Translations under genes and position numbers: made by a program | In this document: piece after piece, positions 1-64,000 of the stretch | How the letters are laid out: each line of letters begins with the position of its first letter | Numbering within the stretch: the stretch's first letter is position 1 | DNA from: Tritrichomonas musculus | Lineage: Eukaryota; Parabasalia; Tritrichomonadida; Tritrichomonadidae | Length of the DNA: 64,000 nucleotides | Assembly: GCA_039105265.1 (NCBI GenBank) | Contig: JAPFFF010000056.1 | Coordinates: 248,001 to 312,000 of the forward strand | Direction of reading: 5' to 3' | The notes under the pieces: model-generated | Seen by the model: only the letters and a program-made list of their open reading frames with translations | Database searches by the model: none | What the model was told of the DNA's origin: nothing

Positions 1-1295
1 TCTTCAATCGTGATACCTTTGAACGAGTTGATGATTTGATTTGCTTCTTTTGTAGGTTTAGTTGAATAAGTTATTCCGTGTTCATCACATAATATTTTCT
101 TTGCTGCTTTGGTTCTGTTAGCTGTATTATATTTTGTTTTCTTTTCATCTTTGTTTTGATTTGTTAGTTCAGGAAACAAACAACAAGCAAGGAAACGATA
201 CCAACACAAACAATCATCAACGTTATCAATAATGATATATTTATTTTTGCCAAACAATTCTGAAACTTCATCAATCTTTCCTGTTATCTTAACTACACGA
301 GAGATTGTAAATGAAACAGACCAAACGATACATAATTTAATGTTTGAAGCCGTGGTTTCATATTCATGAATCTTTGATTCAATATACAGTTTAATTTTAT
401 CAATATCTTTATTCTCTCTAACAATTATCGGAATTGATGATTTATAATTCTTCCAATTAATATCACTTGCCTCATATGTATATCTTTCACTTTCATTCTT
501 TGGTGGTATCTCAAATATACCAGTCAATTGAAAATATATTTTGAACGGTTTCACTTCTTGTTTAAATACTGTTTCAGTGAAATATTCATTGATGTCTTCA
601 ATTGATGAAACACCGTTTTTGTAATATATTTTAATCGGTTCTTTACTGTCTTCATCTAATCGTTCAACCTTTTCACTATCATTTGGGAATTGGTCAATGA
701 AATGACTACATGCTTCAACTGCTTCATCAAAGTTCTCAGGTTCGTTGATTATGAAATATGAATCATGTTTTGAATGAACACCTTTATAGCTAAACTTTTT
801 GAGATATTCAATTAATTCAGCATTTTCATTGTTAAATCGAATGTCTTCATATCGTTGAGGCTGTTTGTTTGTCTTTGGTGGTAATGGTCTCAATAATACA
901 TTTTCAGATTTAATTAATTGAAGAGCTTTGTTGAGTGCATCATGAGCTATTTTAATGTTGTCCTCGATTTGTTTTTGTTTTTGTTGTTGTTCATCATTTT
1001 GTTCTTCTTCTTCAAATTGTTCCTCTTCCTCCTCTTCTTCTTGTTCTTCTGCTTCTCTTTTCATTCTATTAACGAAATCTAATATTGATATGTCATCTAT
1101 TCTATTACCTTCATGTTCTCTAAAGCCAAATGAAGTTAGATAATTTTCTAAGATTGACTTGAAATGTTTTACATCATAATCACTAGGTTTAGATGTTGAC
1201 AAACGAGGTTTTAATTGAAGTTCATTATTGATATACCTGATTTGTTCAATAACAAATGATTTGGTATCTTTTCTATAGTAATAACGAGAACTCAT
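1..1295 (-). CDS. Family B DNA polymerase, N-terminal part (runs off window)
   Basis: An uninterrupted frame runs from an ATG at 1295 off the left edge, so only the first ~431 residues are visible. It aligns along its length with the N-terminal third of the polymerase at 48815-53188. Shared features are an acidic Glu-rich stretch near residue 75-90, a motif close to CLCWYRFLACC near residue 350, and the following K/R-rich helix. The Cys sits in a DxxLCWYRFLA context resembling the Cys box of OTU-like cysteine proteases, which is an inference. Exonuclease and polymerase motifs would lie outside the window. It is divergent from the 116-aa gene at 1388. I infer it is the replicative polymerase of element E1, of the E6 type rather than the E2/E4 type. 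Confidence 0.8.
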   Translation of the reverse strand, partial: MSSRYYYRKDTKSFVIEQIRYINNELQLKPRLSTSKPSDYDVKHFKSILENYLTSFGFREHEGNRIDDISILDFVNRMKREAEEQEEEEEEEQFEEEEQNDEQQQKQKQIEDNIKIAHDALNKALQLIKSENVLLRPLPPKTNKQPQRYEDIRFNNENAELIEYLKKFSYKGVHSKHDSYFIINEPENFDEAVEACSHFIDQFPNDSEKVERLDEDSKEPIKIYYKNGVSSIEDINEYFTETVFKQEVKPFKIYFQLTGIFEIPPKNESERYTYEASDINWKNYKSSIPIIVRENKDIDKIKLYIESKIHEYETTASNIKLCIVWSVSFTISRVVKITGKIDEVSELFGKNKYIIIDNVDDCLCWYRFLACCLFPELTNQNKDEKKTKYNTANRTKAAKKILCDEHGITYSTKPTKEANQIINSFKGITIE

Positions 1296-1387
1296 TTATG
1301 ATATAATTAAAAAATCAAATTATTTGAATTTTGAAAAAATGTTAAATCAAAAAATAAATTTTTTTTTGAGTTTTTTATTTCATTGAA

Positions 1388-1738
1388 ATGTCTGAGTTAA
1401 GAGAAATAATAAAACACATTGAAGAAATACATAAATTACTTTTGATATTAGAATCAAAACAAGAAGTAAGTGAAGAAGAAGAAATAAATGAAGAAGCAAA
1501 TACAGAAGCAAACCATAAAAGAACGCGTTCAATATTCAATTCATCAAAGTTCTTGAACAAGGATGAACGTGAAAAAGTTTTAGAATTTTTGGATGATAAA
1601 GTAATGAATGATATAAATAAGTTGCCAGGACATAAAAGGTGTTCATATACACAAAACTTATTGAAAGACAAATTGAAGTTAAATGTATCATCTTATATGA
1701 TTAATAGATTATTGGTATTTAAGAACAACAAAGAATAA
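1388..1738 (+). CDS. Small basic Maverick protein, 116 aa, wHTH-like
   Basis: The gene encodes a short coiled-coil N-terminus (residues 1-30), an acidic linker (EEEEINEEANTEAN) and a basic C-terminal domain. It matches the 99-aa protein at 53876: both have M-S-E at the start, a central basic FNxSKxxNxD(E/Q)R block, then KLPxHK, Y, and a closing YM(I/T)xxLI helix. The C-terminal ~70 residues look like a compact helical, possibly DNA-binding, fold. That is inferred from helix pattern and charge only. It lies head to head with the polymerase (92 bp between start codons), so a shared promoter region is likely. A T-rich tract precedes the ATG. Function is unknown. Confidence 0.75.
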   Translation: MSELREIIKHIEEIHKLLLILESKQEVSEEEEINEEANTEANHKRTRSIFNSSKFLNKDEREKVLEFLDDKVMNDINKLPGHKRCSYTQNLLKDKLKLNVSSYMINRLLVFKNNKE

Positions 1739-1776
1739 AAATATCATTTAATTAATTTGTTTATTTTTGGTTTAAA

Positions 1777-2022
1777 ATGAATAGTGCAATTAAAGGTTTG
1801 AGTTGTGATACATCAGCTTTACACGCTCAGTTTCGAATAGTTAAAGACAAGATATTCAATGAATGTATGAATTCTGAAGACGATGCATTAAACGGAAAGT
1901 TTGATAAGATGATTCACATATTGTCGATATATAAACAACTATTTAATGATATTGAATCGATTAAAATACAATTAAGAGCTATTGATGAACGTATCAAATC
2001 AGCTGAACAAATGACTTTGTAA
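1777..2022 (+). CDS. Hypothetical helical protein, 81 aa
   Basis: The gene starts 38 bp after the 116-aa gene and is preceded by a T-rich tract (TTTGTTTATTTTTGG) like other genes here. The product is predicted mostly helical, with regular hydrophobic spacing in residues 40-80 suggesting a short coiled coil. No relative was found elsewhere in this window. In E3 the corresponding place upstream of the 196-aa gene is taken by an HNH endonuclease gene. The intergenic sequence following both (TCATTGAAT-, CTCATCATTAAT-) is nearly the same, so the position is equivalent. Function is unknown. Confidence 0.6.
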   Translation: MNSAIKGLSCDTSALHAQFRIVKDKIFNECMNSEDDALNGKFDKMIHILSIYKQLFNDIESIKIQLRAIDERIKSAEQMTL

Positions 2023-2076
2023 ATGAATCATTGAATGACTCATCATTAATGTTGTTTTATTTTTATTCAAACATTC

Positions 2077-2652
2077 ATGGCATTATCAAAAGCTCGTATA
2101 TTAAGTAGTGAGAACGATGCATCTGTCAAAACAGAGCAGAACACAAACATTAATATAAACATCAAACCAAAGCAACCACAACCAGTTGAATATCCATCAG
2201 TTCAACCATTACCACAATCATCTCAAGCCACAAATTTTACTATACCTCAGATGAATGGAGTATATCAATCACCGCAACCAACAAACAACGTTTCACTAGA
2301 AAGAGGTATCAGTGATATTGGAGCTGATATAACAGAACTTGAAACCAAAAACAAATTCCTTGAGATATTGTTATCAATCTATGAAACAAATCCGATAAAA
2401 GTCAATGATTTATTGATTTGTCATTCAAATACATTAATGGAACTCATCAAATTACTAACACAAGCAGATAAAGTTGAATTGATTGTCAATGATGATTGTG
2501 CGTGTAATGGTTGCGTTTCTCGTTCCAAATATCTTTTAATTGATAGGATATTGGTGTACAAAAATAATGAATCAAATGACTTGAAATACAAATATAATAG
2601 CATTTATACCGAACTCATTAGACACAACATTTCATTAAAAACATGTATTTAA
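2077..2652 (+). CDS. Conserved Maverick protein (KARILSSE family), 191 aa
   Basis: This is one of four homologues here (also 18514, 38712 minus and, more diverged, 34359 minus). The order is: N-terminal signature KARILSSENDASVK, a Pro/Gln-rich disordered stretch to about residue 75, then a helical/beta domain with a conserved (L/M)IKLLT-x-(A/C)DKVEL core, a Cys cluster near residue 145 (CACNGC), and a closing (I/V)(R/K)xxISLK strand. The Cys cluster might bind metal. The gene is followed by the 43-aa membrane peptide and the ATPase, an order kept in E1, E3 and E5, so a role in packaging or assembly is plausible but unproven. No known domain is recognised. Confidence 0.8.
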   Translation: MALSKARILSSENDASVKTEQNTNININIKPKQPQPVEYPSVQPLPQSSQATNFTIPQMNGVYQSPQPTNNVSLERGISDIGADITELETKNKFLEILLSIYETNPIKVNDLLICHSNTLMELIKLLTQADKVELIVNDDCACNGCVSRSKYLLIDRILVYKNNESNDLKYKYNSIYTELIRHNISLKTCI

Positions 2653-2662
2653 AAACTAATAA

Positions 2663-2794
2663 ATGATATATGAAATATTAGTTGTTTCATTATTAACAGG
2701 TTTATTTTTAGTGAAGATTGTTGAAGTATCTTTAATGATGCCTGACAAAGAACCAGAACTCAGTGAAGAGATAAGAACAAAAATGTATTCATGA
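2663..2794 (+). CDS. 43-aa single-pass membrane microprotein
   Basis: This short frame starts 10 bp after the previous stop and ends 24 bp before the ATPase start. Residues 2-25 form a hydrophobic segment (EILVVSLLTGLFLVKIVEV), followed by a short acidic, cytosol-type tail with PELSEEIRTKMYS. Frames of the same length and layout occur at the same position in E3 (19115-19246) and E5 (38522-38653, minus). In E5 the membrane segment differs almost completely, but the tail P-P-E-L-S-E-E-M-R-x-K-x-Y is kept. Conservation of length, tail and neighbours across diverged elements is strong evidence that it is expressed. It may be a virion membrane or egress protein, which is inference. Confidence 0.75.
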   Translation: MIYEILVVSLLTGLFLVKIVEVSLMMPDKEPELSEEIRTKMYS

Positions 2795-2818
2795 AGAGCT
2801 TTAACGAAAACTAAAGAA

Positions 2819-3733
2819 ATGAAAGGTTTCATGAAACCCACTCAGTTTAATTACAAAGAGATTTTATTCTCTAGTGGTTCTGATTATGATGATGACCAAA
2901 TGAGTTTTGCATTTGAATATGAATCATTCAAGCCAACTGTTAATGAAACAACATTTAATATTGATGACGAGATGAACAAAGCATATCAACGCAATGAATC
3001 AAAAATAAAGAATGAATCAATCAGACCAATCGCAAACGGTATTTATTCATATTACAATTCATTGAACATACTCGTTGGTCAGCAAGGTAAAGGAAAGAGT
3101 CATATAATGCTACGAGATGTTATTCAAATGTCTCGAATGAAGAACGCTGGCTTTCATTTAATTGTTTATGTATCACGAAACGGAACAATCAATGATGCAA
3201 CATTCGAAAGCCAACGCGAATTGATACAGCTACCAATAAAAACTGTTGCTGACAGCAATGCTGAAGAATATCTTAAACAACTTGATTTATATAAAGAATT
3301 GTATAACAAATATTCATCAACACCAAAAATAGTAATCGATGAAAAGAAGTTAAACGATATGTTTGAGTTTCTTCATATCAATAAACTAGGTCAACCAAAT
3401 AAACCACTAAATACTATCATTCTTTGTGAAGACTTCTTGAAATCGAAACTAATTAAATCATCCTATTTTATCAATACCATCAGTCAGCTTCGACATAAGA
3501 ATCTAATCATATTCGTTAACATCCAGTTCTTCAAAGCTTTAACAACAGAATGGAAAAATAATGCAACATCATTCTTCATCTTTAGTGGTTATTCACGACA
3601 GAAACTCGGCTACATATATCAACAAGTTCCATTTCCAATAGATTTCGAAGAGCTATGGAATCGATACAGAACAATGAAAGCACATCAATTCGTTTTAATC
3701 AATGTTCGAACTAATAACCTTTCATTCATCTAA
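2819..3733 (+). CDS. A32/FtsK-HerA-type genome packaging ATPase
   Basis: The protein has a clear P-loop (Walker A) GQQGKGKSH near residue 86 and a Walker B-like TIILCED near residue 200. Then comes an Arg/Gln region (ISQLRHKN, NIQFFKA) in the place of sensor elements. Size (304 aa) fits the viral packaging ATPases of Polintons and virophages. An alternative start at 2831 (MKPTQFNY) aligns better with the E5 homologue, which begins MLKPTKFDY. It is nearly identical to the E3 copy but lacks a 30-bp hairpin insertion present there. It overlaps the 152-aa gene on the other strand by 12 bp (convergent stops). It would pump DNA into the capsid. Confidence 0.88.
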   Translation: MKGFMKPTQFNYKEILFSSGSDYDDDQMSFAFEYESFKPTVNETTFNIDDEMNKAYQRNESKIKNESIRPIANGIYSYYNSLNILVGQQGKGKSHIMLRDVIQMSRMKNAGFHLIVYVSRNGTINDATFESQRELIQLPIKTVADSNAEEYLKQLDLYKELYNKYSSTPKIVIDEKKLNDMFEFLHINKLGQPNKPLNTIILCEDFLKSKLIKSSYFINTISQLRHKNLIIFVNIQFFKALTTEWKNNATSFFIFSGYSRQKLGYIYQQVPFPIDFEELWNRYRTMKAHQFVLINVRTNNLSFI

Positions 3734-4180
3734 TACAATTTGTTGTTGAACACCAACAAATAGTTGAGGTGTATTGATATTATATTTTTGTCTCATCTGT
3801 TCGATGAGTTCCTTTGTTTTCTTATCATTAACTTTCCTGATACTGTAATTATAATACTTGTATTCTTTAAATGATTGTTCTTCATTTGAGCCTTCAACGA
3901 AGAACTCAATAGATGTTGTTGATATTCTTCTTCTAACATTTGATGTTAATGTTATATATTCGAGCCCGAGTTCAACAATCTTATCATAATATAATCGTTT
4001 GAATTCATTATCTTTGTTCTTCAATGATATGTACAACACTTTAGATTTATATGCAGCCTTTCCACAAGGTATTGGATATCTATCACACAGAATTGAGAAA
4101 TCACATTGTTTGAACTTCTCTGATTCATCCAACATATCAATAAGTGAATTGATGTAATCATAAACTTTTGGTGTTGACAT
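3722..4180 (-). CDS. Conserved Maverick protein, 152 aa, unknown function
   Basis: Members of this family occur in E1, E3, E4 (149 aa) and E5, always next to the ATPase or capsid genes. The pattern is VYDYIN near residue 6, a C-(D/N)-F-(S/A)-(I/L)-L-C-(D/E) core at 26-33, a KV(L/I)YISL strand near 47, NxRRR near 85, then a YYNYSI strand. The gene converges with the ATPase gene, overlapping by 12 bp. I looked for His/Asp/Cys spacing of an adenovirus-type protease and did not find it. No function can be assigned. It could be a small structural or scaffolding protein. Confidence 0.8.
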   Translation of the reverse strand: MSTPKVYDYINSLIDMLDESEKFKQCDFSILCDRYPIPCGKAAYKSKVLYISLKNKDNEFKRLYYDKIVELGLEYITLTSNVRRRISTTSIEFFVEGSNEEQSFKEYKYYNYSIRKVNDKKTKELIEQMRQKYNINTPQLFVGVQQQIVLDE

Positions 4181-4250
4181 ATCTTTAGAGTGAAATTAAA
4201 AAACAAAAAACAAAAATAAAAACGTCATTGAAGACACTTCAGATATCTTT

Positions 4251-4457
4251 TTAATAAATGAGTTCTTCAAGTTCAGCAATTAATTCAGCAGGACCGTTGA
4301 ATTTCTTTAGTTGTTCAATAAAGTGATTTATCTCTTTTAGTACTTCATCTATGATATCATCATTATCGTAGAGGTATTTTAAAGCGGGTCTCCATCCTTT
4401 TAGCTTTTTATTGATTCTATTAATGAGAGTGCTTAATGTTTCGGCTTGGTTTGACAT
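4251..4457 (-). CDS. 68-aa helical protein inside the terminal inverted repeat
   Basis: The frame starts MSNQAE, is entirely helical in character with a central GWRPALKYLYDNDD segment, and ends ELIAELEELIY. An almost identical gene lies at 59444-59650 in the opposite orientation, at the other type of end of the same element family. The gene is therefore part of the TIR and would be present at both ends of a complete element. Differences between the two copies leave the frame open and are mostly conservative, consistent with a translated gene. Function is unknown. Its position next to the tip suggests a terminus-related role, which is inference. Confidence 0.7.
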   Translation of the reverse strand: MSNQAETLSTLINRINKKLKGWRPALKYLYDNDDIIDEVLKEINHFIEQLKKFNGPAELIAELEELIY

Positions 4458-4674
4458 TATAAATTGCTGATAAAAAAATAAAAAATTTTTGAAAGTTCTA
4501 TTTTTCGTTGTTGTTATTTTTGGTCATTAGTCGTGTTGACGGTGGGCTTTAGCTCGACGGAAACCGACTGATATATACTACTAAACAAGTTCAAAGATGT
4601 AAATTCAAAGATGAAGATTCAAAGATGAAGATCAAAAGTGGCGACCGTTAACTTTAAAATTTATCTGACCTCCC
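4252..4674 (-). repeat. Right terminal inverted repeat of E1
   Basis: About 423 bp here are the reverse complement of 59213-59650. Working inward from the tip (GGGAGGTCAG read on the minus strand), there is a unique ~40-bp tip, a minisatellite of the 14-mer TTCAAAGATGAAGA and variants (4588-4635), a hairpin zone (GGGCTTTAGC, CGGAAACCG) and the 68-aa ORF. The end at 4674 is placed where similarity with the E7 left end stops. Flanking DNA at 4675 is coding sequence of another element, so this is an insertion junction. Confidence 0.85.
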
Positions 4675-5130
4675 AAAAGCCCACCCTATCTCTCTGACGT
4701 GGCGGATCTGAAAAATGCAAGAACAAGTGGTCCTCCAACAACTGATTCATTTGCAGAGAAGTATGTAAGAACTCAATTGATGGACAACGAACTAGACCAT
4801 CTTCGATACATGTTTGACACCATTCCCCAGACATCAACAGCTGAACAAACATCATTGTTCAAGACATATGGATGGAAGTTGTCCAATTGCATTTATCATC
4901 TTCGACCATACTTATCACCAGAAGAGAAAGAGAAGTTGGACAATTCATGCGACTTCGTTAAAAAAGACAGGAGGCAATCACCGAAACAAGTGATGAAGAA
5001 CATCAAAACCTTCAATGAAGGTATGATAAAGAACCAATATCAACAAAAATCTGATATGAAGTCGAAAGGAAATGAATTCCAATATAATTTTCCACATCTA
5101 GATGATGATGATAATGGATATCCTCAATAA
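4675..5130 (+). CDS. 5'-truncated gene of E2, unknown function
   Basis: The frame is open across the junction at 4674 with no ATG near it. The first ATG-like start in view is a GTG at 4699, so the gene probably lost its 5' end when E1 inserted. About 150 residues remain. They are hydrophilic and helical, with a C-terminal acidic tail (LDDDDNGYPQ). No homologue occurs in this window and no domain is recognised. It sits 67 bp upstream of the polymerase start in the same direction and may have formed a unit with it. Confidence 0.55.
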   Translation, partial: KSPPYLSDVADLKNARTSGPPTTDSFAEKYVRTQLMDNELDHLRYMFDTIPQTSTAEQTSLFKTYGWKLSNCIYHLRPYLSPEEKEKLDNSCDFVKKDRRQSPKQVMKNIKTFNEGMIKNQYQQKSDMKSKGNEFQYNFPHLDDDDNGYPQ

Positions 5131-5197
5131 ACAATTAATTTTTTAACTTTTTCTTTTGTTTTTATTTTTATCGTTTCACTTTTATTTTGTGTTAAAC

Positions 5198-8100
5198 ATG
5201 AACAAGGACATTGAAGATGATTTTTTAGATGCTATTGGAGATGTCTATGCTGATACAAAATCACAGTTTCGTCGTGAATATAATCGACGTGCTAAACAAT
5301 ATAAAAAGAACGACAAGTTTAAAGAAGAAATGAGGAAGCTCATGATTCCAGCAGGACAAGGTATTGGTTTTGCAACAGACATCAACCAAGATGAAGATAA
5401 GAGGTATGCGTTTACTGAAACACTTAGACAGATTTATAAAATGAAACATGCTGGAAGACCTATTGTAAAAGCAATAGCACTTGATGGAACTCACAAGTAC
5501 TTCACACTCAGTGATAAGCACAACATCGAAAGTACACTCGGACTTATAACAGGAGAACTTGATTTAAGTGAAGACCAATCAGATACAAATCCATACATCT
5601 CAAACATGTTCATTCCTGTTCGATATGAGGTACAATTTATTGACATGAATAAAACAAATTATGGTGTTCATTTTCGAACCAAGATGCAAGATATGGATAC
5701 TCATGAAATCTATGATGATGAAGTCGAAATTGATGAAGACTATCGAAATACACCAGAAGGAAGTTTTTTTCCATACATCAATCGTTCTCCAATAGACCTA
5801 TCAGCATATCAAATCTTTCATGAAGTAAGGAAAGAGAACTACAGAGATAATTGTTTTGTATATGCTTGTATACAATCAGGTGTGTTCACTGATGATGAAA
5901 TAGATGACCTACGATTTTTTGTTCAAACAAGAACCATACCTAATAACAAGATAATTGATGTTGCTCAAAAGTTCAAGTGCAATTTTAGCATCATTAGAGT
6001 TGTTGAACAACCTGATAAATACAAGTATGAAACAAGAATCAACACCAGAAAGAAAAAATGGTCTGTTGATTTTAAAAGAGAAGTTAAACTGATATTGTTC
6101 AAAGACCATTATATGCTCAACAGGAAAATACCTTGTACATTATTCTACCTTCAACACTATGAAGAACTTGATAAAACATTCGCACATATGCCTTTTGAAA
6201 AAAGATGTAAGATACAAAGATTGCATGATAATGGAAAGACTGTCAAAGACTATAATCATGAAGGAATCAAACCAATAACCTTTTTCCAAAAGATGTTTGA
6301 ACTACATCTATTCGAAGAAATAAAAGCATGTGAAATGGATATAATCAACACAACTGAATATGAACATGTTAATGACTATGTAAGTCTCGAATATAATGCA
6401 GAACAATGTACAAGACTCATTGATAATAACAAGAAGAAACAAAATACATGGTCAAGGATTTATTATAGCGACTTCGAAACAAACTCTACAGTCAGTCCAC
6501 ATATACCATATCTCAATTGTACTATCTTTCGAGATGGTGCCAACATACATAAAATATCTATTCAAGGTGAAGATTGTGGACAGAAGCTCTTGAATTATTT
6601 ATGGAGTGGTTCATTAACATATTTTCACAACCTCAAGTATGATGCATGCTTTTTCATTAACACACCTGGATGGGATACACAGATAACAGAACGAAGTGGT
6701 ACTGTACTTCAAATCATCATGACATTATTCGAAGAAGGTACAAGGAAAGTCAAAAAAAGATTAACATTCAGGAACTCATACAGTATAATACCACAAGCAT
6801 TAAGTAAATTTGCTATAATGTTCAACCTCAATGTTCACAAGGAAGTCATGGCATATAAGATATATACACAAGAGAACATACAAAGAAGAATTGTTGATGC
6901 TACTGAGTTCCAACAGCAATACATCGATGAAAACCAAGACAAGTTATCGAAAGAACAACTTGATGCAAACTGCAAGCAGATTATCGAAAATGCAAAAATA
7001 GCAAATTGTTATAATGATGGCAAAATCGACATCATTAAATATGCCATCTTCTATTGTTTCAAGGATTGTATTGTTTTGATGAAGGGAATGGAAAAATTTA
7101 ATAGAGACCTCGGAGAAGTCTTTAAAGAAACAAAGACAGATATGTATGGTGTTCATGATTTTATATCTATCAGTGCTATTGGATATTGCTTTGCAAAAAA
7201 ATATGGTTGTTTTGATGGATGTTATGAATTATCAGGTAAGTGTCAAGACTTCATTCAACGATGTGTTTCAGGTGGACGAACAATGACAGCAGGTAATGAA
7301 AAGCAATACATCGAAGGAAGGATACAAGACTTTGATGCAGTTAGCTTATATCCATCTGCAATGTATGTCATGGATGGTATACCAAAAGGAAGACCTAAAG
7401 TAATACCACAAGGTACTACCCATGAACAACTTATGCAATATGATACATTCTTTATCGAAGTCAACATCAAGAAACTCGAATGTAAATCAAAAGAGCCATA
7501 TAAATTTGGACAAGTATTTACAAGGAATGAATCAGGTAGTAAAATATTCGGTAATTTCCTTGTTGACCATTATTATATCGATAAAGTAGGTCTTATGGAC
7601 TTGTTCGAATTTTATGATGTTGAATATGAGTTAATACGTGGCTATTACTTTGATGAAGGATTTAACAAGAAAATCAATGAGTTCATTGAGAAGCTCTTTA
7701 ATCTCAGGGCAAGTTATAAAAAGCAAAAGAACCCTCTTGAACAAACAATAAAGCTCCTCCTCAACTCCATATATGGCAAGTCAATATTAAAAGCAACTAA
7801 GACTGAAACAAAGACAGTACCAAAAAGCCAACTATACAAGTATCTCTGGCGGAACTACAACTTTGTCAAGGAGGTTGTTGAAGATGCTAATATTGATAAG
7901 TGCTATGTCAAGAAGTTGAAACCAATTAATGACCATTTCAACCTACCTCAATTTGGTGCAAGCGTTCTCTCTTGGAGTAAGCACTTAATGAACAGGGTTA
8001 TGGCTACAGCTGAGCAAGCAGGTATACCTATCTACTATCAAGACACAGATTCTTGTCACGTTATGGAAAATGACGTGCCAAAGATAGCTGACTTATTCCA

Positions 8101-17816: not shown

Positions 17817-17817
17817 A

Positions 17818-39798: not shown

Positions 39799-39799
39799 G

Positions 39800-53597: not shown

Positions 53598-53624
53598 AAA
53601 TTGAATTCTATCACAAATCTAGAA

Positions 53625-53830: not shown

Positions 53831-53875
53831 AATCAAAAAACTCTTATATTATTTTTATTTTTATTTCAAACAACA

Positions 53876-54175: not shown

Positions 54176-57023
54176 ATACTGCAAGTATATTTTCACTTAT
54201 AATACTAGTAATAATTCCCACTGTCATTCTTCTTATTTTTGCAGTAATAGCAGTAGCACCAGCAAGAATCTTTAGTTTATTGTCATCATCTATGAAAACT
54301 TCATCTCCCACGCAATAGCAACTCGAGTCTGTAACACGCACAAGATAATCGCCGTGACTGGCAAACGTAATTGCGCTATGTTTGGTATCTATATTAGTAC
54401 AAATTCCTACGTACTCTTTCCATGTTCCTTGTGTTTTCACAGAACAAATACAGTCAGTGGTATCCTCTGTCGTGGAAACTTCCCATTTATCATTATTTCT
54501 CTTGTACACGTTTCCAGTAAGATACACAGGAGCACCAACTATGAAATCAGAAATAGAATTTACAGAAGTTTCTATAGGAGCGTAGTGTGTAATAGTTGTG
54601 CTGTTTGCTATTGTTCCTGTTATTGTTCCTGATACACGCAAATTACCACCAACATTTAAATTACTATATAATATAGTATTTGTATCTTGAAAACTTATTC
54701 TAGTAACATTTAAAAGTTGTCCAGCATCAACATTTATATTAAACTGGCCACAACTTCCTTCTGTATTATATCTGTATGAGAATTCCGCACTTTTATCTTC
54801 ATTTTCACCAAAAACTATATATTTACCCTTATTATTTTCATAACAACCATTAATAACCGTATTGTACTGCGGGTGTATATTTATTGTACCTTCTATAGTT
54901 GAATTCCCCGTAGTTTTCACATATTTTTCATTTGCTGTGACTTCTGTAAGTAGAGGTTCGAAATTAATATTACATGGATTTTGAAGATAAGTTTTCTTAC
55001 CAATTTTATCATATCTAAAGAAATCTTTATTAGAATCATCAGAAATTATAAAAGTGCTATGTGTGAGACCAAAACTAACTTCATTATAAGAAGAACCATA
55101 ATTTATAATCTTCAAAGCTGGATCTCCATAATTTGATTCTAAAGACACATGTTTACTATTATCGGTGTTCGCCATTACTATAGAATTATTTACTTCATCA
55201 TACGCAAACAAATCTTCTTTGATATTGGACTTTATTATATTCTCTACTAATTTTACAGTAGGCACAGCAACATTATTTGTGATAGAACTTTCGTCATACT
55301 GTTGTGAATTTACTACAGTAGGAATATCAGTTTTCAGAGCACAATCACTATTTTGTACTTCTTCTAGATAATTTTCTGCAATATAACATTCTCTGCCTTT
55401 ATAAGTTGATTTCACTAATTTTTCATTAATACGGTACTCAAAAGCGGAAGAAATAAGATCATACATACTATCATGTATATACAATATTTTTAGGTTACGA
55501 CAATCCGAAAACATACTGTTACACGACGATAATTCAACTGTAGCCGCTGTAATTATGTTTGAAATATCTAAAACTTCTAAAGAAACACAATGAGAACACA
55601 AACTGTCTATATTTACCACATTCCTCGAATAAAACATAGATAAATCAGCTTCCTTTAGTTTAAAACACTGTTCACACGTATCAAAGAAAAGAGTACATAA
55701 ATTATTGCTATATCTCTTATCAAATTTTATAGTCTCTAGGTTATTACACTTAAATATTAAATTTGTACATGATTTAACATTAGAAATATCAAAGTTGGTA
55801 AGATCAATATGAATTACGGTTTTAGAACAATTTCCAAAAGTATACAAAGAAGTTATATCTTTACCATTGAAATCAGTAGCAACAGAGATACTTGCAGGAC
55901 AATTTTTATTAAGCTGAATAGAATTAAATTTGACAACATTGCCATTATAAACTATACTTGGAACAAACTTTGTTAACATTGCTACTTTTTCTAGAGTAGT
56001 GATTCTACCATTACTAACATTATAAGTATAATCTCCATAAGTAAAAACATTTTCGGTGATAGTCTTTACAAATAAAATTATAGTTTCATTCTCTACACTA
56101 CACTTGATATAGCCAACTTTGTCACTCTCATAAGCAGCATAACCTGAAACATACTCAGCTGTATCTTCTATTTTTACATATACTTCTTTGTCATTCGCAC
56201 TTACATTATGTGTGATACCAAAAGATTTAGAAGTTCCATCTTCAAACATAGCTTTTACAGTTAAAGTACGTTCTTTTCTATTATATCTTTCATCTGCTGT
56301 GACTTCTGTAAGAAAAGGTTTCTGATCCTCAAGATTACAGGGATTTGCTAATAAAGTTTGTTTGTCATCTTTATCATAATGAAGAATAATATTATCATTT
56401 ATATCACTTATTAAAAAACCACAGGGTGTAGCGCCAAAACTAACTTCATTATAAGAAGAATCATAATTCACAATCTTTAAAGCTGGATTTCCATAATGTG
56501 ATTCTAGAGATACACATTTATTATTATCTGTGTTTGCCATCACAATTTCATTTTTTCCAGTATCATACGTAAATAAATTATATTTCGTCGTCAAATCTTC
56601 TACTAATTTTACAGTAGGAACAACGTTATCATTTGTAGTAGAACTTTCATCATACTGCTGTGAATTTACTACAGTTGGAATATCATCTTTTAGTCTATAT
56701 TTTTCATCTGCAACAGCTGTAGTTAAGAGAGTTGTATCTTCATAAATAAGATCATTTTTCTTGCGATATTCATTTTCAAGTTCCTTATTTGAAACATAAT
56801 TCAGGATTTCTTTATTAAATTCTTCGGTCTTAAGAAACTCAAATAAGTCTGTAGAAAGTGCATATGGTTCCAACATTTTTTTGATTTCCTCAACATTTAT
56901 ATTCGGACTTGAACTAACTCCACCTTGACACGAGTATTTTCTTATATATTCTATGATAAGCTCGTCTATAGTATTTACTTTCTTAATACTGCCAGCCTGC
57001 TCTATTGTGAACATTTTGGACAT
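54165..57023 (-). CDS. Large fibre-like protein with duplicated module and LRR-like insert, 952 aa
   Basis: In order: helical N-terminus; a ~150-residue module containing IPTVVNSQQYDESS and VMANTDNN; a middle domain; a stretch with repeated hydrophobic Asn/Cys pattern (VIHIDLTNFDISNVKSC, LETIKFDKRY, LKEADLSMF, SLEVLDISN; ~390-530) resembling BspA/DUF285-type leucine-rich repeats; a second copy of the module (IPTVVNSQQYDESS again at ~605); then a C-terminal fibre part with LNVGGNLRVSGTITGTI and a beta-rich end. Likely the spike of E6, replacing the unrelated fibre of E2/E4. Divergent from the 723-aa gene with 5 bp between ATGs. Confidence 0.7.
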   Translation of the reverse strand: MSKMFTIEQAGSIKKVNTIDELIIEYIRKYSCQGGVSSSPNINVEEIKKMLEPYALSTDLFEFLKTEEFNKEILNYVSNKELENEYRKKNDLIYEDTTLLTTAVADEKYRLKDDIPTVVNSQQYDESSTTNDNVVPTVKLVEDLTTKYNLFTYDTGKNEIVMANTDNNKCVSLESHYGNPALKIVNYDSSYNEVSFGATPCGFLISDINDNIILHYDKDDKQTLLANPCNLEDQKPFLTEVTADERYNRKERTLTVKAMFEDGTSKSFGITHNVSANDKEVYVKIEDTAEYVSGYAAYESDKVGYIKCSVENETIILFVKTITENVFTYGDYTYNVSNGRITTLEKVAMLTKFVPSIVYNGNVVKFNSIQLNKNCPASISVATDFNGKDITSLYTFGNCSKTVIHIDLTNFDISNVKSCTNLIFKCNNLETIKFDKRYSNNLCTLFFDTCEQCFKLKEADLSMFYSRNVVNIDSLCSHCVSLEVLDISNIITAATVELSSCNSMFSDCRNLKILYIHDSMYDLISSAFEYRINEKLVKSTYKGRECYIAENYLEEVQNSDCALKTDIPTVVNSQQYDESSITNNVAVPTVKLVENIIKSNIKEDLFAYDEVNNSIVMANTDNSKHVSLESNYGDPALKIINYGSSYNEVSFGLTHSTFIISDDSNKDFFRYDKIGKKTYLQNPCNINFEPLLTEVTANEKYVKTTGNSTIEGTINIHPQYNTVINGCYENNKGKYIVFGENEDKSAEFSYRYNTEGSCGQFNINVDAGQLLNVTRISFQDTNTILYSNLNVGGNLRVSGTITGTIANSTTITHYAPIETSVNSISDFIVGAPVYLTGNVYKRNNDKWEVSTTEDTTDCICSVKTQGTWKEYVGICTNIDTKHSAITFASHGDYLVRVTDSSCYCVGDEVFIDDDNKLKILAGATAITAKIRRMTVGIITSIISENILAVFKS

Positions 57024-57028
57024 AATAA

Positions 57029-59200
57029 ATGATGTTCGACATAGATGAAGAAATTATCAAGAGCCAAGTAAAAAATAAAGACTATAGAAATATGCTAGTG
57101 TTTATGTATGTAAACTGGACTAGTGTGACTGACACAAATAAAGAAATTATTCTTCGAAATATCATAGAAATTGCCAACAATTCTAAAAATTATGTAAAAG
57201 ATGCCCAAGATAAACTACAAGAAATGTTGACTTTTTACAAAACTAGACCTAAAGGGAGTCAACGCCAGAAAGCTGATTTAGCAAAAATATTAGAGTCAAA
57301 AGCAAAATATTTTCAAGATATATCTTCATATGTGAAACCTACATCATATGTAAAACTTAATATTCCTAACAAAACCAAACAAAAGAAACCTCCCCTAATT
57401 AATATTGTTGATGATGATGATGATACTGCTGAACTTAAAATAGAAGAGGAAGAAGAACCCGAATCTGATAAACATTATTACAGAAACAGATATAATGAAG
57501 ATTTATCTACGCTTACTAATATAATTGTACTTGAAAAAAATGTTGCAGACTCACTTTTGTTATACTACAGAATTGCAGATGATCCTGATAAATATCCTTT
57601 ATTCAACAAAAAGGATACAAAGCAAATTAGGTCTCTTGTAGAAACTTTGACAAAGAATATTGATTCTAATAATAGAAACTCTGACAAGATTGCTGGGCTT
57701 GTGGAAGATTTGATGAAATTCGAAAATCAAAGAAGACAAACAAATATAGAAACTGTGAGCAAGCTTGCTGAAATTGACAAACAAAACTTACAAAACATGA
57801 GTAATGAAGAAAAAGAAAGGTTAGTAAACTCATATAATAAATCTTCTGCTGTAGATGCTGCACAGCTTCGTAAATTTGGTTTGTTAAATGAAAATTTCAC
57901 AGAAGAGAATCTCTATAGTTATTACAATCGTGCTTGCTCTCCAAAAGATGATTCTGATACCAGAGTAAGAAATCTTGTTTTACAGTTGCATGCTGCTATT
58001 CGTGAGACAAACATTTTTGATTCTACTACAGAACCTAAGAATAAAGAGCAACTCCAAAACTTATTAAAGTATATTTCCGAGAACGGAGATCGAGAAATCT
58101 TTTACAATATGAATAGCGATGACAATGAAAATGAATATTTTTTAGAACCTAAAACCATGTCACGAGAGGAAGTTATAGTATATAGTGATGATGATGATGA
58201 AATTGATAATGATGATGAACTTAACAATCTAAATTCATCTATAGCAACCTTTAGAGATTCACTTAAACGTAAAGGAGGAAAAAAGTTAGAAGACCAAGAA
58301 ATAAGGTTTGCTGATAGCGCTGCTAAAAGATTTAAACCTTATGGTGAATTTAATCGTGAAAATACTTATATGCCAGATAAGGATTTTACAGAAGATTTGT
58401 TGAAGAAACCTAAAAGAACTGTAGGTCAAAGAAAAAATAGAGATGTAAAAGATATACCAGATAAACTCAAAAGTTCTTTCAAAATAGCAAAATTATCAGG
58501 AGACGGGGATGTTTCCTTTTACAATCAACAATTATTAGATATCATCATCAATGGTAATTTCCGTATAAAGTATATACCGAACGCAGCTACACGAGATTTA
58601 GCACAAGAATATGCTTATAATCATGTAGATGATTCTGGACAACCTCGCTACAGGCTTCTTCCACCAAACACAAAAGATCCTAACGGAGTTAATATTACAG
58701 ATTTGAATGGAGATTTAGTTGATGATATTGTACTTGTAGATAAACGTGGAGTACCAAGAATTATTAACGGATATAAGATTGTTCGTGCTAGTCCATATAA
58801 GAAAGTATGGAAATCACAATTCAAATCACGTGAAGCTAGAAAAGAAACTCCATTTAATGTTTGGCTAGCAGCACAATTTGAAAAGTCTATCGACAACGTT
58901 GATTGGGCCAAAGGTGAATATAAACTTAAAGAAACAGAAGAAATGCAAAAATATACAGATCATTATACGAAATTAGGTTTAGGAAAACCAAGAATAAGCA
59001 AAAGACTGTCTCCTAGCTCATACTGGGCATCTATTTTCTCTCATATCTGGAAGTTCTTTTGGGATGTAGCTTATCCAAAATACAAATCTGTAATCAGGCT
59101 TCTAAATTATCTAGGTTTATCAAATGCTATGTACATTATTGTTGTTGATCTTGGTGTCAAACGTGAAGTAGAAGCAAAAGAATTTAACGGTAGAGAGTAA
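57029..59200 (+). CDS. Large conserved virion-module gene, 3' truncated by E7, 723 aa
   Basis: N-terminal helical region, acidic stretch (DDDDDTAELKIEEEEEPESD, ~130), long Asn/Lys-rich helical part, then a conserved region with TDLNGDLVDDIVLVD (calcium-loop-like), INGYKIVRASPYKKVW and SYWASIFSHIWKFFW. It matches the truncated gene 46408-47598 up to residue ~715. After that the reading frame ends within 13 bp of the E7 tip, so the natural C-terminus (~200 more residues in E5) is missing. Function unknown; size and acidity suggest a structural or scaffolding role. Confidence 0.7.
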   Translation: MMFDIDEEIIKSQVKNKDYRNMLVFMYVNWTSVTDTNKEIILRNIIEIANNSKNYVKDAQDKLQEMLTFYKTRPKGSQRQKADLAKILESKAKYFQDISSYVKPTSYVKLNIPNKTKQKKPPLINIVDDDDDTAELKIEEEEEPESDKHYYRNRYNEDLSTLTNIIVLEKNVADSLLLYYRIADDPDKYPLFNKKDTKQIRSLVETLTKNIDSNNRNSDKIAGLVEDLMKFENQRRQTNIETVSKLAEIDKQNLQNMSNEEKERLVNSYNKSSAVDAAQLRKFGLLNENFTEENLYSYYNRACSPKDDSDTRVRNLVLQLHAAIRETNIFDSTTEPKNKEQLQNLLKYISENGDREIFYNMNSDDNENEYFLEPKTMSREEVIVYSDDDDEIDNDDELNNLNSSIATFRDSLKRKGGKKLEDQEIRFADSAAKRFKPYGEFNRENTYMPDKDFTEDLLKKPKRTVGQRKNRDVKDIPDKLKSSFKIAKLSGDGDVSFYNQQLLDIIINGNFRIKYIPNAATRDLAQEYAYNHVDDSGQPRYRLLPPNTKDPNGVNITDLNGDLVDDIVLVDKRGVPRIINGYKIVRASPYKKVWKSQFKSREARKETPFNVWLAAQFEKSIDNVDWAKGEYKLKETEEMQKYTDHYTKLGLGKPRISKRLSPSSYWASIFSHIWKFFWDVAYPKYKSVIRLLNYLGLSNAMYIIVVDLGVKREVEAKEFNGRE

Positions 59201-59650: not shown

Positions 59651-59867
59651 ACAATTCATTTAATTCTTTCTCAAGCTGATGAACTTTATTTTTGAGGCTG
59701 TTGATGTCTTCGATAAGAGACTCACGAACGGCGAGACCATCAGAGCCCAACATTCCTGATTTGATATTGTTGAGACATTGTTTGTAATCATAACACTTTT
59801 CTTTCAATCCTCGTTTGATTCGTTTTAATTCTGGTATTTCTTTCTTGTATTCTGTTAGTTCACTCAT
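59640..59867 (-). CDS. Coiled-coil protein, 75 aa
   Basis: Homologue of the E5 gene at 39318: YKKEIPELKRIKRGLKEKCYDYKQ, SGMLGSDGLAVRESLIEDI, C-terminal heptads. Divergent from the 77-aa gene with 14 bp between ATGs. An isolated piece of this gene survives in E3. Confidence 0.75.
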   Translation of the reverse strand: MSELTEYKKEIPELKRIKRGLKEKCYDYKQCLNNIKSGMLGSDGLAVRESLIEDINSLKNKVHQLEKELNELSNK

Positions 59868-59881
59868 TTAATAACAATTAA

Positions 59882-60115
59882 ATGTCTGTTATTAATCAAA
59901 TGAGAACCGTTCATGATGATAAACACAAAAACTATTTTGATAGATTACAATTAACGATGCAAAAGAATAGAACAAAAATAAACTCAGCACCGACAGTGAA
60001 ATGTTATAATGAAAAAGGCAATGTATTTCATGAACCACCACCAAAAACGGCTAAATCATTAAATCATCATGATTCACTTAATCATTCGGTGGTTGTCAGG
60101 AGCAACAACATTTAA
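59882..60115 (+). CDS. Small basic conserved protein, 77 aa (E7 copy)
   Basis: Counterpart of 39565-39798 with HDDKHKNYFDRLQLTMQKN and SLNHSVVV near the end. Overlaps the convergent 158-aa gene by 42 bp. Confidence 0.75.
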   Translation: MSVINQMRTVHDDKHKNYFDRLQLTMQKNRTKINSAPTVKCYNEKGNVFHEPPPKTAKSLNHHDSLNHSVVVRSNNI

Positions 60116-60550
60116 AATATATTCATTAATGACTTTTGATTGTTGGTCAACAACATTTGAAAGCTTATTGATATGTTCTTCAAGTATTTTATTTTTGTTG
60201 TTCAATTGATTGATTTGCTCAGTGAGTTCGTTTAATGATTCCTTCATTATTGATATATCAGCTTTGATGTTGTCGTTTTCGAGTGTTTTAGTGATTGTGT
60301 TCCCAACTTTCTTCAAATAAATGTCGCCACCACATCGTTTACCGTCTTTGCAATTACGTTTAGTGATTTTGTATTCATTGCCGTCATTAGTGATGATTTT
60401 ATAAATCTTGTTCAAATAGTTAGTCGTTTGTGTTTTCATTTGCTCGATATTCTTTTGATAGAACAAATTGAACTCTTCAATTGATTTAAACACTTTTGAT
60501 TCATTAATGTTTTCGTTTATTACTTTAAGTTCATTAATGTTATCATTCAT
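60074..60550 (-). CDS. Conserved Maverick protein with coiled coil, 158 aa
   Basis: Counterpart of 39800-40246: FKSIEEFNLFYQKN, TTNYLNKIYKIITNDGNEY, KITKRNC, GGDIYLKK, then heptads. The C-terminus is ~10 residues longer and reads into the 3' end of the 77-aa gene. Confidence 0.75.
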   Translation of the reverse strand: MNDNINELKVINENINESKVFKSIEEFNLFYQKNIEQMKTQTTNYLNKIYKIITNDGNEYKITKRNCKDGKRCGGDIYLKKVGNTITKTLENDNIKADISIMKESLNELTEQINQLNNKNKILEEHINKLSNVVDQQSKVINEYILNVVAPDNHRMIK

Positions 60551-60586
60551 TTATATTCATATTAAATCATTATTTTTCATTGTTTT

Positions 60587-60841
60587 TCATTTAACTTCAT
60601 TCAATATTGATTTACCAAATTTGCCCACTTTGTCGACAGCATTTAATCCTGTATCAATTGCGTCAACTACTTGACCAACACCAGGAATGAATTGTGTGAT
60701 TGGTTTAACTCTGTCCATGATTTGCTTTCCAACATCAACAACTTTTGGAATTGCTTTAACTGCTTTCTGAGCGAATGATTTAACTTTACCGCCAATTGAT
60801 TTAAATGCGTTCTTGATTTTGTTGAATATACCGACACCCAT
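60587..60841 (-). CDS. 84-aa amphipathic peptide (E7 copy)
   Basis: MGVGIFNKIKNAFKSIGG start, basic amphipathic helix, KAIPKVVDVGKQ, the IPGVGQVVDAIDTGLNAVD middle and a GKSILNEVK end. Compared with E5, hydrophobic and Gly positions are kept while polar ones vary, as expected for an amphipathic membrane-active helix. Divergent from the capsid gene (49 bp). Confidence 0.7.
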   Translation of the reverse strand: MGVGIFNKIKNAFKSIGGKVKSFAQKAVKAIPKVVDVGKQIMDRVKPITQFIPGVGQVVDAIDTGLNAVDKVGKFGKSILNEVK

Positions 60842-60890
60842 AATTTAATTGATGATAAAAGTGATTTATTTCCTTTTTATTCAATTATAA

Positions 60891-62963
60891 ATGTTATATC
60901 GAAACGAAAGAGCTCATAACCTTCGCACTGAAACAGGAAACGTTCTTCATGCATTTGAAGAAATGAGAAACATGATTAATGTTAATGACGGAACACGTTC
61001 ATTTTCATTTAGAACTGTTGACTGTCATGACCAACCAGCTCCATTTCATCAAGGGCAGTATTCGCAAATAAGTTTAACACATCCTGACCACTTCGTCAGT
61101 GATATTGATAAAGGTTTCTTAACATTTCACGTTAAATTAGATTTATCATTGAATACAGATATGAGTAAATTAAATGAAATCGATGACCCATACAATTTAT
61201 ATAAATTATTTGTCGGTTTCAAATCATCAAATCAGTTGTTTGACAGGTTAGAGATTCTTCATAATAATGTCAATGTCGGATACCAACAGAATGAATGCAT
61301 TCGTGAAGGCTTCTTATATTCTTCAGTTAAACCAGAAGCCGAGAAGAAACGCCGCAGATTCGTTCATTCATTGTGGGAAAACGTCAGCAACTATTCACAG
61401 ACACATGCAGGAGCTTATGTTAATTTGAATTCATTTAAGAACACAGGAAGAAGCGAAGTCGAATTTGATTTGAATGTTCCTTTTGATGATTTGCTTGCTT
61501 TACAAGCATTTGATTTATTCCCTAACGGAATCATTGGTGATTTATCAATTCGTTTTCAAGTTAGTCCCGCTGGTCTTGTTTGGGCAGTATTAGACCCTTT
61601 CACAGTTGCAGAAGCGAAAGTATTTCTTGAAGATAATGATTCAATATCTATGGATGAATTAGATAGATTAAAGGAAATCAAAGCCCGTGGACATCTTCGT
61701 CATCAATTCACACAAATCGGTAATCAAGCAGTGATTCCAGGTCCAGGAACTCCGTCACCAGACCCATCACCAACACCAACACCTGTACCACCATCACCAT
61801 CACCTGACCCATCACCAGAAGAAGAAGATAAACCAGAACCATCACCATCACCTGAACCAACACCAGCACCAATCAAATATAAACTCACTTATAGGCTTGG
61901 CGAACAATATAACTTTGGAAGCGATGGTTCATATACTTATGATGATATTGCAACAGACCTTTCAATGTATTTCAGTTATACAGCAGAAGAGTTCGCAAAA
62001 TTAGACCTCAAACCAACAGCAACTGATGAAGAAATTTGTTTAGCAAATCCAGATTACACAAAACCACCATTGACACACAACGACGGAAAGTATTATGTTT
62101 GGCAAATTGAGAAAACAGTTGCTAAATCAGCTCTCAGAGTTGTTAATGAATATCATGATGCAAGAGCTCAATTATTGAAAGAAACTTATTCTGCTCAAAC
62201 AGCAACATTAACAGTTAATCGAATGACCATCACAGCTTGTAAATCTAATATGCAAGGCTTTGGAGTTTGTGAAGCTACAAGACAAGGAATTGAAGACATT
62301 TTAAGACAAGGTTTAATCATTCCTTCACAAAAAGTTGATTATCATGCTTTCCCAATCGCTCCAGCAGCAAACGGAATCAAGTCAACATTGAATATTCCAT
62401 TAATCAATGCAACTAATTTATCAATCATGTTTCCAAAGCATCATAATGATTTAACAGTCTTTGAAAATCCAGTTTATCAAAACTGTTTCTTGAATATTGG
62501 TGGAAAGAACTTCCCAGACGAAAACGTTTCAACTATTGGTGCACGATTCTTTGAAAATCAATTAACGGCTGGTGATTTAGATGCAATCACTCTTTCATGC
62601 ACAAAGGAATTTGAAGACTCAATGACAATGCCAAAGAATGACGCGAACGGAAAGAGATACAAGAATACAATTAGTGATGCAACATCATTTGTTTTCAACA
62701 TTCAAACAGAACGAGCAAGCGCAGGATATTGTTATGACGGACTTGATGGAGGTTTCGGAAACGTTCAAATACAAGTCAATGGAATGCCTATCTATACAGG
62801 AGATGATGACACATATTACAATGTTGTTGAACCTGATGGAACTATCATCAGACCACCCCCAACACAATTATGGATAACTAGGGACACCTACTTCCATTTA
62901 TCTCTTGACGGTTTAGAATATCATGACGACGAATCACCAAAAGGAAGCCAAGCAAATGAATAA
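60891..62963 (+). CDS. MCP: Major capsid protein (double jelly-roll), 690 aa
   Basis: Close homologue of the E5 protein, with near-identical folded regions (SFRTVDCHDQPAPFHQGQYS; PFDDLLALQAFDLFPNGIIG; KVDYHAFPIAPAANG; ENQLTAGDLDAITL). The Pro-rich linker (~285-325) is longer and has an acidic insert (PSPEEEDKPEPSPSP). Followed directly by a double-hairpin unit and the integrase; the KilA-N gene of E5 is missing. Confidence 0.83.
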   Translation: MLYRNERAHNLRTETGNVLHAFEEMRNMINVNDGTRSFSFRTVDCHDQPAPFHQGQYSQISLTHPDHFVSDIDKGFLTFHVKLDLSLNTDMSKLNEIDDPYNLYKLFVGFKSSNQLFDRLEILHNNVNVGYQQNECIREGFLYSSVKPEAEKKRRRFVHSLWENVSNYSQTHAGAYVNLNSFKNTGRSEVEFDLNVPFDDLLALQAFDLFPNGIIGDLSIRFQVSPAGLVWAVLDPFTVAEAKVFLEDNDSISMDELDRLKEIKARGHLRHQFTQIGNQAVIPGPGTPSPDPSPTPTPVPPSPSPDPSPEEEDKPEPSPSPEPTPAPIKYKLTYRLGEQYNFGSDGSYTYDDIATDLSMYFSYTAEEFAKLDLKPTATDEEICLANPDYTKPPLTHNDGKYYVWQIEKTVAKSALRVVNEYHDARAQLLKETYSAQTATLTVNRMTITACKSNMQGFGVCEATRQGIEDILRQGLIIPSQKVDYHAFPIAPAANGIKSTLNIPLINATNLSIMFPKHHNDLTVFENPVYQNCFLNIGGKNFPDENVSTIGARFFENQLTAGDLDAITLSCTKEFEDSMTMPKNDANGKRYKNTISDATSFVFNIQTERASAGYCYDGLDGGFGNVQIQVNGMPIYTGDDDTYYNVVEPDGTIIRPPPTQLWITRDTYFHLSLDGLEYHDDESPKGSQANE

Positions 62964-62989
62964 ATAAATTGATTTTCATTAAATAATCA

Positions 62990-63019
62990 TTTTGCTTTGC
63001 AAAAGGGAACAGAGTTCCT
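62990..63019 (-). repeat. 30-bp double-hairpin unit after the capsid gene
   Basis: TTTTGC-TTT-GCAAAA then GGAAC-AGA-GTTCC. Same plan as the reverse complement of 19792-19821. Where bases differ in the stem, the partner also differs (GGGAC/GTCCC versus GGAAC/GTTCC). Confidence 0.85.
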
Positions 63020-63051
63020 TCATAAATTAATGCTTTATTTTTGTGATTCAA

Positions 63052-64000
63052 ATGAATGAATCAATCAACTATCCTTTCAAATCTAAATACAAGTACATCA
63101 AAGACACAAGCATTAAAACTGAGCCATATATTCCAGATCACCAATTGAAAACAGTAAAGAAACTATCAAAACCTGACTTTTCATTTGAGCCTCATTGTTG
63201 GGAAATGGATATAATGTTTGCATTAAACAAAGCTTATCTTGTTCTTATCAATGTAAACACCAAATACTTAATTGTTGAACCAATTGATTACAAATCTGTG
63301 TTTTATGTAATCAAAGTAATTGATAAACTAGTCAATAAAAGGAATATCAGAATTGAAACAATTAAATGTGATGGTGAAAAGGCTTTTATATCAAATACAT
63401 TCAAAGACTATTGCAACGGTGAAGAGCTATATCAAACAAACAAACCGTCAATTAAAGTCAAAGCACCAAACAAAATAAAGTTAATCATTGATGATTCACC
63501 TTTCACGAATGCACATAAATGTGTTGATGCCGTAATCAGAACATTACGAAATGCTTTCGGTCAATCACAACAACGAATGACAAACAATGTATTGATACAA
63601 CAAACGGTTGAATGGTACAATAACACTCCTCATTCATCTCTTCGTTTATTGAATCCTTTATACACGTCATTTGACGAAGAAACTGATGAATACCTTGACA
63701 AACGACAATCAAAATACATTTATCTAACACCTCAACAGATGCAAGATGACCGCGACCTTGAATGGCAATACATAAGAGCGAAATCAATGCAATTGAAAGA
63801 GATTCAACAAAAACAACGATTTAAAGGTCTTCTGTCATACAAACCCAAAAATATAATACTCATTCACACCGATTACGGAAAAACAGAAAAGAAACATGAA
63901 AAGCGAAGAAGAGTATTTAATGAACTTGCTGAATTCATTTGTTATGAATCAGGAAACGTTAAATGTAAACTATTAAATCCTTTACGTCAAACTAACAAAA
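63052..64000 (+). CDS. int: Retroviral-type integrase, 3' end outside window
   Basis: Starts MNESINYPFKSKYKYI and continues open to the edge (~316 residues). Core residues: first Asp in CWEMDIMF, second in IKCDGEKA, third acidic residue in HKCVDAVIRTLRNAFG, again Asp rather than Glu. Then EWYNNTPHSSLRL and the C-terminal HEKRRRVFNELAEFI. It is shorter than the E5 copy between the second and third acidic positions. One of the two GATC sites I noticed in E7 lies here, near 63136. Confidence 0.88.
   Translation, partial: MNESINYPFKSKYKYIKDTSIKTEPYIPDHQLKTVKKLSKPDFSFEPHCWEMDIMFALNKAYLVLINVNTKYLIVEPIDYKSVFYVIKVIDKLVNKRNIRIETIKCDGEKAFISNTFKDYCNGEELYQTNKPSIKVKAPNKIKLIIDDSPFTNAHKCVDAVIRTLRNAFGQSQQRMTNNVLIQQTVEWYNNTPHSSLRLLNPLYTSFDEETDEYLDKRQSKYIYLTPQQMQDDRDLEWQYIRAKSMQLKEIQQKQRFKGLLSYKPKNIILIHTDYGKTEKKHEKRRRVFNELAEFICYESGNVKCKLLNPLRQTNK

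Follow-up and report, generated by a model that had tools for sequence, protein, structure and literature searches.

Near-loss of the palindrome GATC from most Maverick elements of a Tritrichomonas musculus contig and its probable basis in restriction-site avoidance

Results

Elements and genes of the window

The window analysed here is a stretch of 64,000 nucleotides from Tritrichomonas musculus, a gut protist of mice (contig JAPFFF010000056.1, positions 248,001 to 312,000, forward strand). It carries Maverick (Polinton) elements labelled E1 to E7 in a preliminary description made from the letters of the DNA, which stated that GATC is nearly absent from all of them except E6. We call an element that is nearly free of GATC an avoider and one that keeps GATC near its expected count tolerant. 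A family B DNA polymerase (PF03175), a mark of Mavericks, is present in E2 and E4, and named relatives of the E4 polymerase fall in Tritrichomonas musculus. Among the 37 window open reading frames (ORFs) scanned with Pfam no integrase match turned up, with no search aimed at RVE-type integrases, and no full pair of terminal inverted repeats was assigned to one element of the window. The features are as follows, with GATC counts given as observed against expected.

1..4210: body of E1 (avoider), with ORFs 2077-2652, 2819-3733 and 3722-4180 and, on the minus strand, the beginning of a putative E6-type polymerase; GATC 0 against 16.5 (Markov)
4211..5197: E1 terminal repeat and following stretch; GATC 2 against 5.6, at 4630 and 4705
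5198..12163: E2, avoider; DNA polymerase B 5198-8473 (PF03175, E 1.2e-30), ORF 8466-9176 and, at 9194-12163, the first fibre-like ORF; GATC 0 against 24.3
12164..14716: GATC-bearing stretch within E2; GATC 9 against 6.6
14717..17400, plus strand: second fibre-like ORF of E2, avoider; GATC 1 against 5.5
17401..47300: E3 to E5, avoiders; GATC 6 against 102.9
17818-18459 and 33108-34019: HNH_3 genes (Pfam scan of window ORFs)
29596..32955, plus strand: E4 DNA polymerase B (PF03175, E 2.8e-32); GATC 0 against 10.9
40579..42615, plus strand: putative major capsid protein, avoider copy; GATC 0 against 9.9
48035..59200: E6, tolerant element; GATC 25 against 32.9
48815..53188, plus strand: putative second-type DNA polymerase of E6; GATC 13 against 15.5
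59695..64000: E7, avoider; GATC 1 against 17.1
60891..62963, plus strand: E7 avoider copy of a putative capsid gene; GATC 0 against 9.2

The name second-type polymerase for the E6 gene is also taken from the preliminary description; its product matched no Pfam family, PF03175 included, and BLASTP to the E4 polymerase gave no significant match. Positions 1-627 (E1) align with 49989-49348 in E6, and E1 runs on upstream into a further locus, L040. Inverted copies at 4211-4700 and 59694-59187 are 88% alike and come from different elements. For the putative capsid protein a first structure model (pLDDT 35) was discarded as too poor; with a second one of moderate confidence (pLDDT 61.6) eight of the first nine Foldseek matches were named capsid or penton, at low TM-scores (0.16-0.25).

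GATC is selectively lost outside E6

Two nulls were applied, a second-order Markov estimate and a codon shuffle that exchanges synonymous codons within an ORF and so leaves its protein and codon usage unchanged; this shuffle covered 37 window ORFs of at least 120 amino acids (33 outside E6, four in E6). By the Markov estimate the whole window has 45 GATC against 219 expected, while the other 15 palindromic 4-mers, a comparison suggested in the preliminary description, lie between 0.42 and 1.58 of expectation. E6 with its end repeat accounts for 26 of the 45, the stretch 12164-14716 for nine and the E1 end for two. The remaining avoider sequence holds eight against 169 expected (Markov), at 17141, 22869, 25383, 25537, 27584, 45435, 45627 and 63136. 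These sites had not been listed before, so that near-absence holds but complete absence does not.

In the 33 ORFs outside E6 there are six GATC against 118.6 ± 7.9 in the codon shuffle (z -14.3), the lowest value of all 256 4-mers (runner-up z -6.2), and in the four E6 ORFs 24 against 31.6. The gene-by-gene reading was borne out as well: the E2 polymerase (0 against 10.7, codon shuffle), the penton-like and fibre N-terminal part (0 against 12.3 in ORF 9194-12163), the E4 polymerase and both putative capsid genes are without GATC, E1 has it only near its terminal repeat, the region described as an insertion in E2 does bear GATC, and the count in the E6 polymerase, estimated by eye at about fourteen, is near random. 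Several GATC of the stretch 12164-14716 recur at 105-bp spacing in a 105-bp tandem repeat (13273-13626). The gene at 45378-46373 has two GATC although it lies inside an avoider; nine relatives were found, all unnamed or hypothetical, and it may be a recent acquisition.

The loss is visible in codon choice. Before a codon starting with C, avoiders write Asp as GAC in 79 of 84 cases (GAT in 5), against 141 GAC and 637 GAT elsewhere in avoiders (p 7e-46); E6 uses GAT in 23 of 25 such cases (GAC in 2), as had been noticed by eye. GACC is raised in the 33 ORFs outside E6 (100 against 53.1, codon shuffle), matching the expectation for switched Asp codons. An equal loss is found in both other frames (G then ATC; NGA then TCN). 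All six of the lowest among 920 five-mers tested in avoiders include GATC, and TGATCA is the lowest of 30 six-base palindromes (1/15.8), followed by TTTAAA (42/66.0) and AGATCT (0/14.5).

Host DNA and some Maverick lineages keep GATC

Genome searches covered the 193.4-Mb Tritrichomonas musculus assembly, from which 10-kb samples were taken at 19 places. The 13 samples without a match to window proteins were called host; five with such a match (L020, L022, L027, L030, L035) were left out, as was L023, in which no ORF reaches 150 residues. Expected counts for pooled loci derive from stop-to-stop frames, not from curated genes. The host, again a comparison suggested beforehand, is not depleted: 292 GATC are present in its 13 samples where 280.3 are expected, with single samples at 0.80 to 1.24 of expectation. 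All 19 samples together have 341 against 384.4; low ones are the Maverick stretches L022 (3/14.9) and L035 (2/24.0) and the sample L023 (0/39.6), and L030 has 20/27.9. TTAA is low in L035 (32/65.9) and in E6 (window 48035-59200; 65/99.7).

E6 is tolerant in the window, as described, but it is not the sole exception. An E6-type tolerant lineage (L043, L027 and L056) has 75 GATC against 85.6, and a tolerant element with an E2/E4-type polymerase (L041 and L020) has 65 against 62.3. Conversely L040, the continuation of E1, has one against 42.9, and over 260 residues the putative polymerase of L040 shows 57% identity to the E6 one. Thus both Maverick superfamilies hold avoiding and tolerant lineages, and avoidance crosses the line between them. 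The clearest case is a capsid-type gene, which has 13 GATC against 11.2 in tolerant L056 and none in its window relatives (0/9.9 and 0/9.2), at 68-72% protein identity. The counterpart of E6 gene 54165-57023 at L027 2475-5363 spans two reading frames and is probably a broken copy. As host and tolerant elements retain GATC, the loss is element-specific, not genome-wide.

The loss is kept up while copies diverge

In 12 comparisons of tolerant with avoider copies, GATC occurs 83 times in the tolerant copies and never in the avoiders; six other palindromes occur 425 times in the tolerant and 375 times in the avoider copies, with 67 shared. Where a single change replaced GATC, 37 of 55 changes are synonymous; 47 of the 55 affect positions 3 and 4 (chiefly C to T and T to C), and none of the four positions is spared. 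In six avoider-avoider alignments 2.9 to 8.9 new GATC per alignment were expected from substitutions and none was seen (P 0.00 to 0.07); these alignments and the 12 comparisons overlap in the sequences used, so that they are not independent. In two additional alignments, made of tolerant copies, GATC stands at 13 to 10 and 5 to 7. L012 was excluded from one alignment for an internal stop. What the data show is that one palindrome is lost in particular elements and at the level of codons, and that this loss is maintained while copies diverge. Codon shuffle, codon switch and copy comparisons therefore support the earlier proposal of selection on DNA, not on protein, aimed at GATC in most window elements and not in E6.

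Relatives lose other palindromes

Thirteen loci with related polymerases were analysed with the same null, using tests with at least 8 expected occurrences. The records L002 to L012 carry the titles of bacterial or archaeal bins; we take them for protist-element contigs that were binned wrongly. Zero counts occur in 25 of 132 palindrome tests and in 4 of 2220 non-palindrome tests of these loci, compared with 0 of 131 and 0 of 2288 in the 13 host samples and 0 of 60 and 0 of 1068 in tolerant Mavericks. At least one palindrome is missing in 8 of the 13 loci (none in L002, L004, L007, L008 and L012), and the sister contigs L005 and L013 supply 13 of the 25 zeros. Over 23,568 bases (L005 1-13608 and L055 1-9960) there is no ACGT, AGCT, CATG, CCGG, CGCG, CTAG, GCGC, GGCC, GTAC or TCGA, with 52 GATC present; L013 lacks the same ten and GATC over 14.2 kb. 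L005 and L013 are syntenic at 81-84% DNA identity. The L005 contig carries an A32-like ATPase, a polinton-like trait, and seven further ORFs of it match no methylase family.

L003, with an archaeal-bin title, lacks CTAG (0/27.9) and GTAC (0/20.7), keeps GATC (52/60.5) and encodes a D12-class adenine methylase. L004 from the same bin has GATC above expectation (33/17.8). L002, which has the gene order of E2, keeps GATC (24/28.1) and is low in TCGA (10/27.8). Loci L014 to L019 match over a short polymerase stretch alone and have zero counts in 4 of 84 palindrome tests; hence palindrome loss is not special to polintons. ATAT is missing in L014, L015 and L016 (0/70, 0/79 and 0/62). IMG/VR scans for relatives gave few or none.

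Discussion

Restriction-site avoidance in an extrachromosomal, virus-like phase is the best reading of these data, and we consider it probable. The site is palindromic, it lies far below a codon-aware null, and DNA of the same cell that would be unexposed keeps it (13 host samples, L023 left out). A cutting enzyme is further favoured because relatives lose other 4-bp palindromes, and L003, with its D12-class methylase and retained GATC, speaks for it as well. Most of the Maverick lineages seen would be, or would recently have been, virus-like DNAs with an extrachromosomal stage in their cycle, during which an endonuclease would cut unmodified GATC. From elements without known protection selection would have removed the site, mostly by synonymous changes, while unexposed host DNA would have kept it; the E6 lineage and L041 with L020 may be unexposed to the enzyme or shielded in some way.

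From the pattern of loss we infer a nuclease as its cause. That it was brought in by a co-infecting DNA virus or a rival element is a guess; we know of no such virus in trichomonads. Precedents are giant viruses of protists, some of which have GATC restriction systems; melbournevirus is one of them, and it leaves host DNA undegraded during infection, according to the available text (PMC7253447). Together with the lack of an enzyme match in the genome, this would make an extrachromosomal, virus-borne cutter the most economical source. Capsid genes are described as dense in T. vaginalis, with a similar genome share in T. foetus, in the available part of PMC10120064.

Several observations weigh against restriction-site avoidance. 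The preliminary description had proposed a GATC-specific cleavage or methylation system. A cutter remains the best explanation, but an identifiable system did not emerge from the genome family searches, which were run exon by exon with the best candidates scored: MethyltransfD12 (PF02086) had no match in the genome, although the profile matched in four control genomes, and neither did the DpnII and MutH families (PF04556, PF02976), each of which matched in one control genome. PF01555 gave one 46-residue frame. The capsid family of nucleocytoplasmic large DNA viruses had no match in the genome, a result without weight since it was silent in all controls too. The tolerance of E6 and of L041 with L020 counts against it too: with Pfam, neither the four ORFs of E6 nor seven ORFs of L041, L027 and L020 matched a methylase family. 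GATC is also not the only odd word, as GTGAC (0/11.2) and the above-mentioned TTTAAA are low in avoiders and GTAC is below expectation in four of the six avoider alignments. L005 and L013 differ in GATC over their shared stretch (28 to 0), though both have the same PF01555 methylase type. Finally, the 10-kb sample L023 (G000:C10:100001-110000; 23% GC) has no GATC against 39.6. L023 has no match to window proteins and is perhaps satellite-like.

Methylases were considered as the source of these differences. Shielding of tolerant elements by a methylase is unsupported by the Pfam scan of the E6 ORFs and of the seven ORFs of L041, L027 and L020. In L005 and L013 the shared PF01555 type means that its mere presence fails to explain the GATC difference, and PF02086 gave no match in either contig. 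The genome has four MT-A70 genes. Methylation alone, the other half of the earlier proposal, is an unlikely cause because host GATC is normal. In Trichomonas vaginalis, N6-methyladenine (6mA) favours WATW contexts to SATS ones and shows no enrichment in transposable elements, as far as the available text of PMC12695648 states, which makes the known eukaryotic 6mA pathway a poor candidate for the pressure on GATC.

Among the alternatives, a cytoplasmic GATC nuclease of the protist itself, of an undescribed family and never meeting nuclear DNA, could act as an innate defence against Mavericks. It would account for normal host GATC without a methylase and for strong pressure on several lineages together; nevertheless we regard it as unlikely, since known GATC nuclease families are unmatched in the genome and two tolerant Maverick lineages in the same genome would need to be spared. 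GATC might instead be shunned for a reason other than cutting: silencing could target it, a protein could bind it, or it could be a signal that disturbs replication or packaging. Such a reason agrees with the nuclease search without match and with lineage-specific tolerance. It is improbable in view of the relatives, which are missing further 4-bp palindromes (as many as ten together in L005), a pattern that suits restriction better, and of the 6mA preferences just mentioned.

An HNH endonuclease encoded by the elements might also cut GATC, so that elements avoid sites of their own or of rival copies, and the two HNH_3 genes of the window would be candidates. Homing endonucleases usually have long recognition sites. 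PADLOC, run on ten ORFs (eight of the window, two of tolerant loci), made one call, naming one HNH protein a homing endonuclease, and relatives of the window HNH proteins also occur in tolerant L027, L041 and L056; we judge this explanation quite improbable. The concentration of replacements at positions 3 and 4, mainly between C and T, could suggest that mutation or methylation decay strips GATC without selection. However, GATC persists in host DNA, in tolerant elements and in the stretch 12164-14716, all within one nucleus, most replacements are synonymous and all four positions are affected, so that decay is very improbable indeed. An artefact of composition or codon bias is ruled out for practical purposes by the protein- and codon-preserving shuffle (z -14.3) with the Markov estimate in agreement, and no point was found in its favour.

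With host and sister elements serving as controls within one genome, the almost complete loss of a palindrome suggests that virus-like elements of eukaryotes are subject to restriction, and the loss of GATC supports a real extrachromosomal phase for Mavericks. Missing palindromes also offer a means of deducing unseen opponents purely from sequence. We tentatively extend restriction-site avoidance further: missing palindromes might be a readable record of the enzymes of such opponents, here an undiscovered GATC-cutting DNA virus or rival element attacking replicating Mavericks, and restriction might be a general force among protist viruses as well as bacterial ones.

Among the matches listed in an open-access literature search, with most subscription papers and all preprints outside it, no paper dealt with site avoidance in Mavericks, polinton-like viruses (PLVs) or virophages. 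The following statements refer to the available parts of the papers cited. A bacteriophage survey found GATC under-represented in every one of the 46 phages whose host has a gene for the matching enzyme (PMC6286503). The present case is alike in that a short palindrome known as a restriction site is nearly lost, but here the elements belong to a eukaryote in which no known enzyme was found. Eukaryotic viruses have been taken as a restriction-free negative control, save those with systems of their own (PMC4687349, PMC6286503). Chlorella viruses, Marseilleviridae and Phaeocystis globosa viruses do encode restriction systems, with under-represented sites in 8 of 17 cases (PMC4687349); in contrast, the 37 window ORFs match no methylase or restriction family (Pfam). 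Among the PLVs of one cryptophyte 24 of 177 encode Dam-like methylases, interpreted as a shield against nucleases of giant viruses or the host (PMC12220804), and PLVs of C. parva carry methylases where their giant virus has at least eight predicted restriction systems (PMC6459981). Avoidance is unmentioned in the available text of these two papers. Methylase-bearing PLVs would thus protect their sites by methylation, whereas the Mavericks described here are without the sites.

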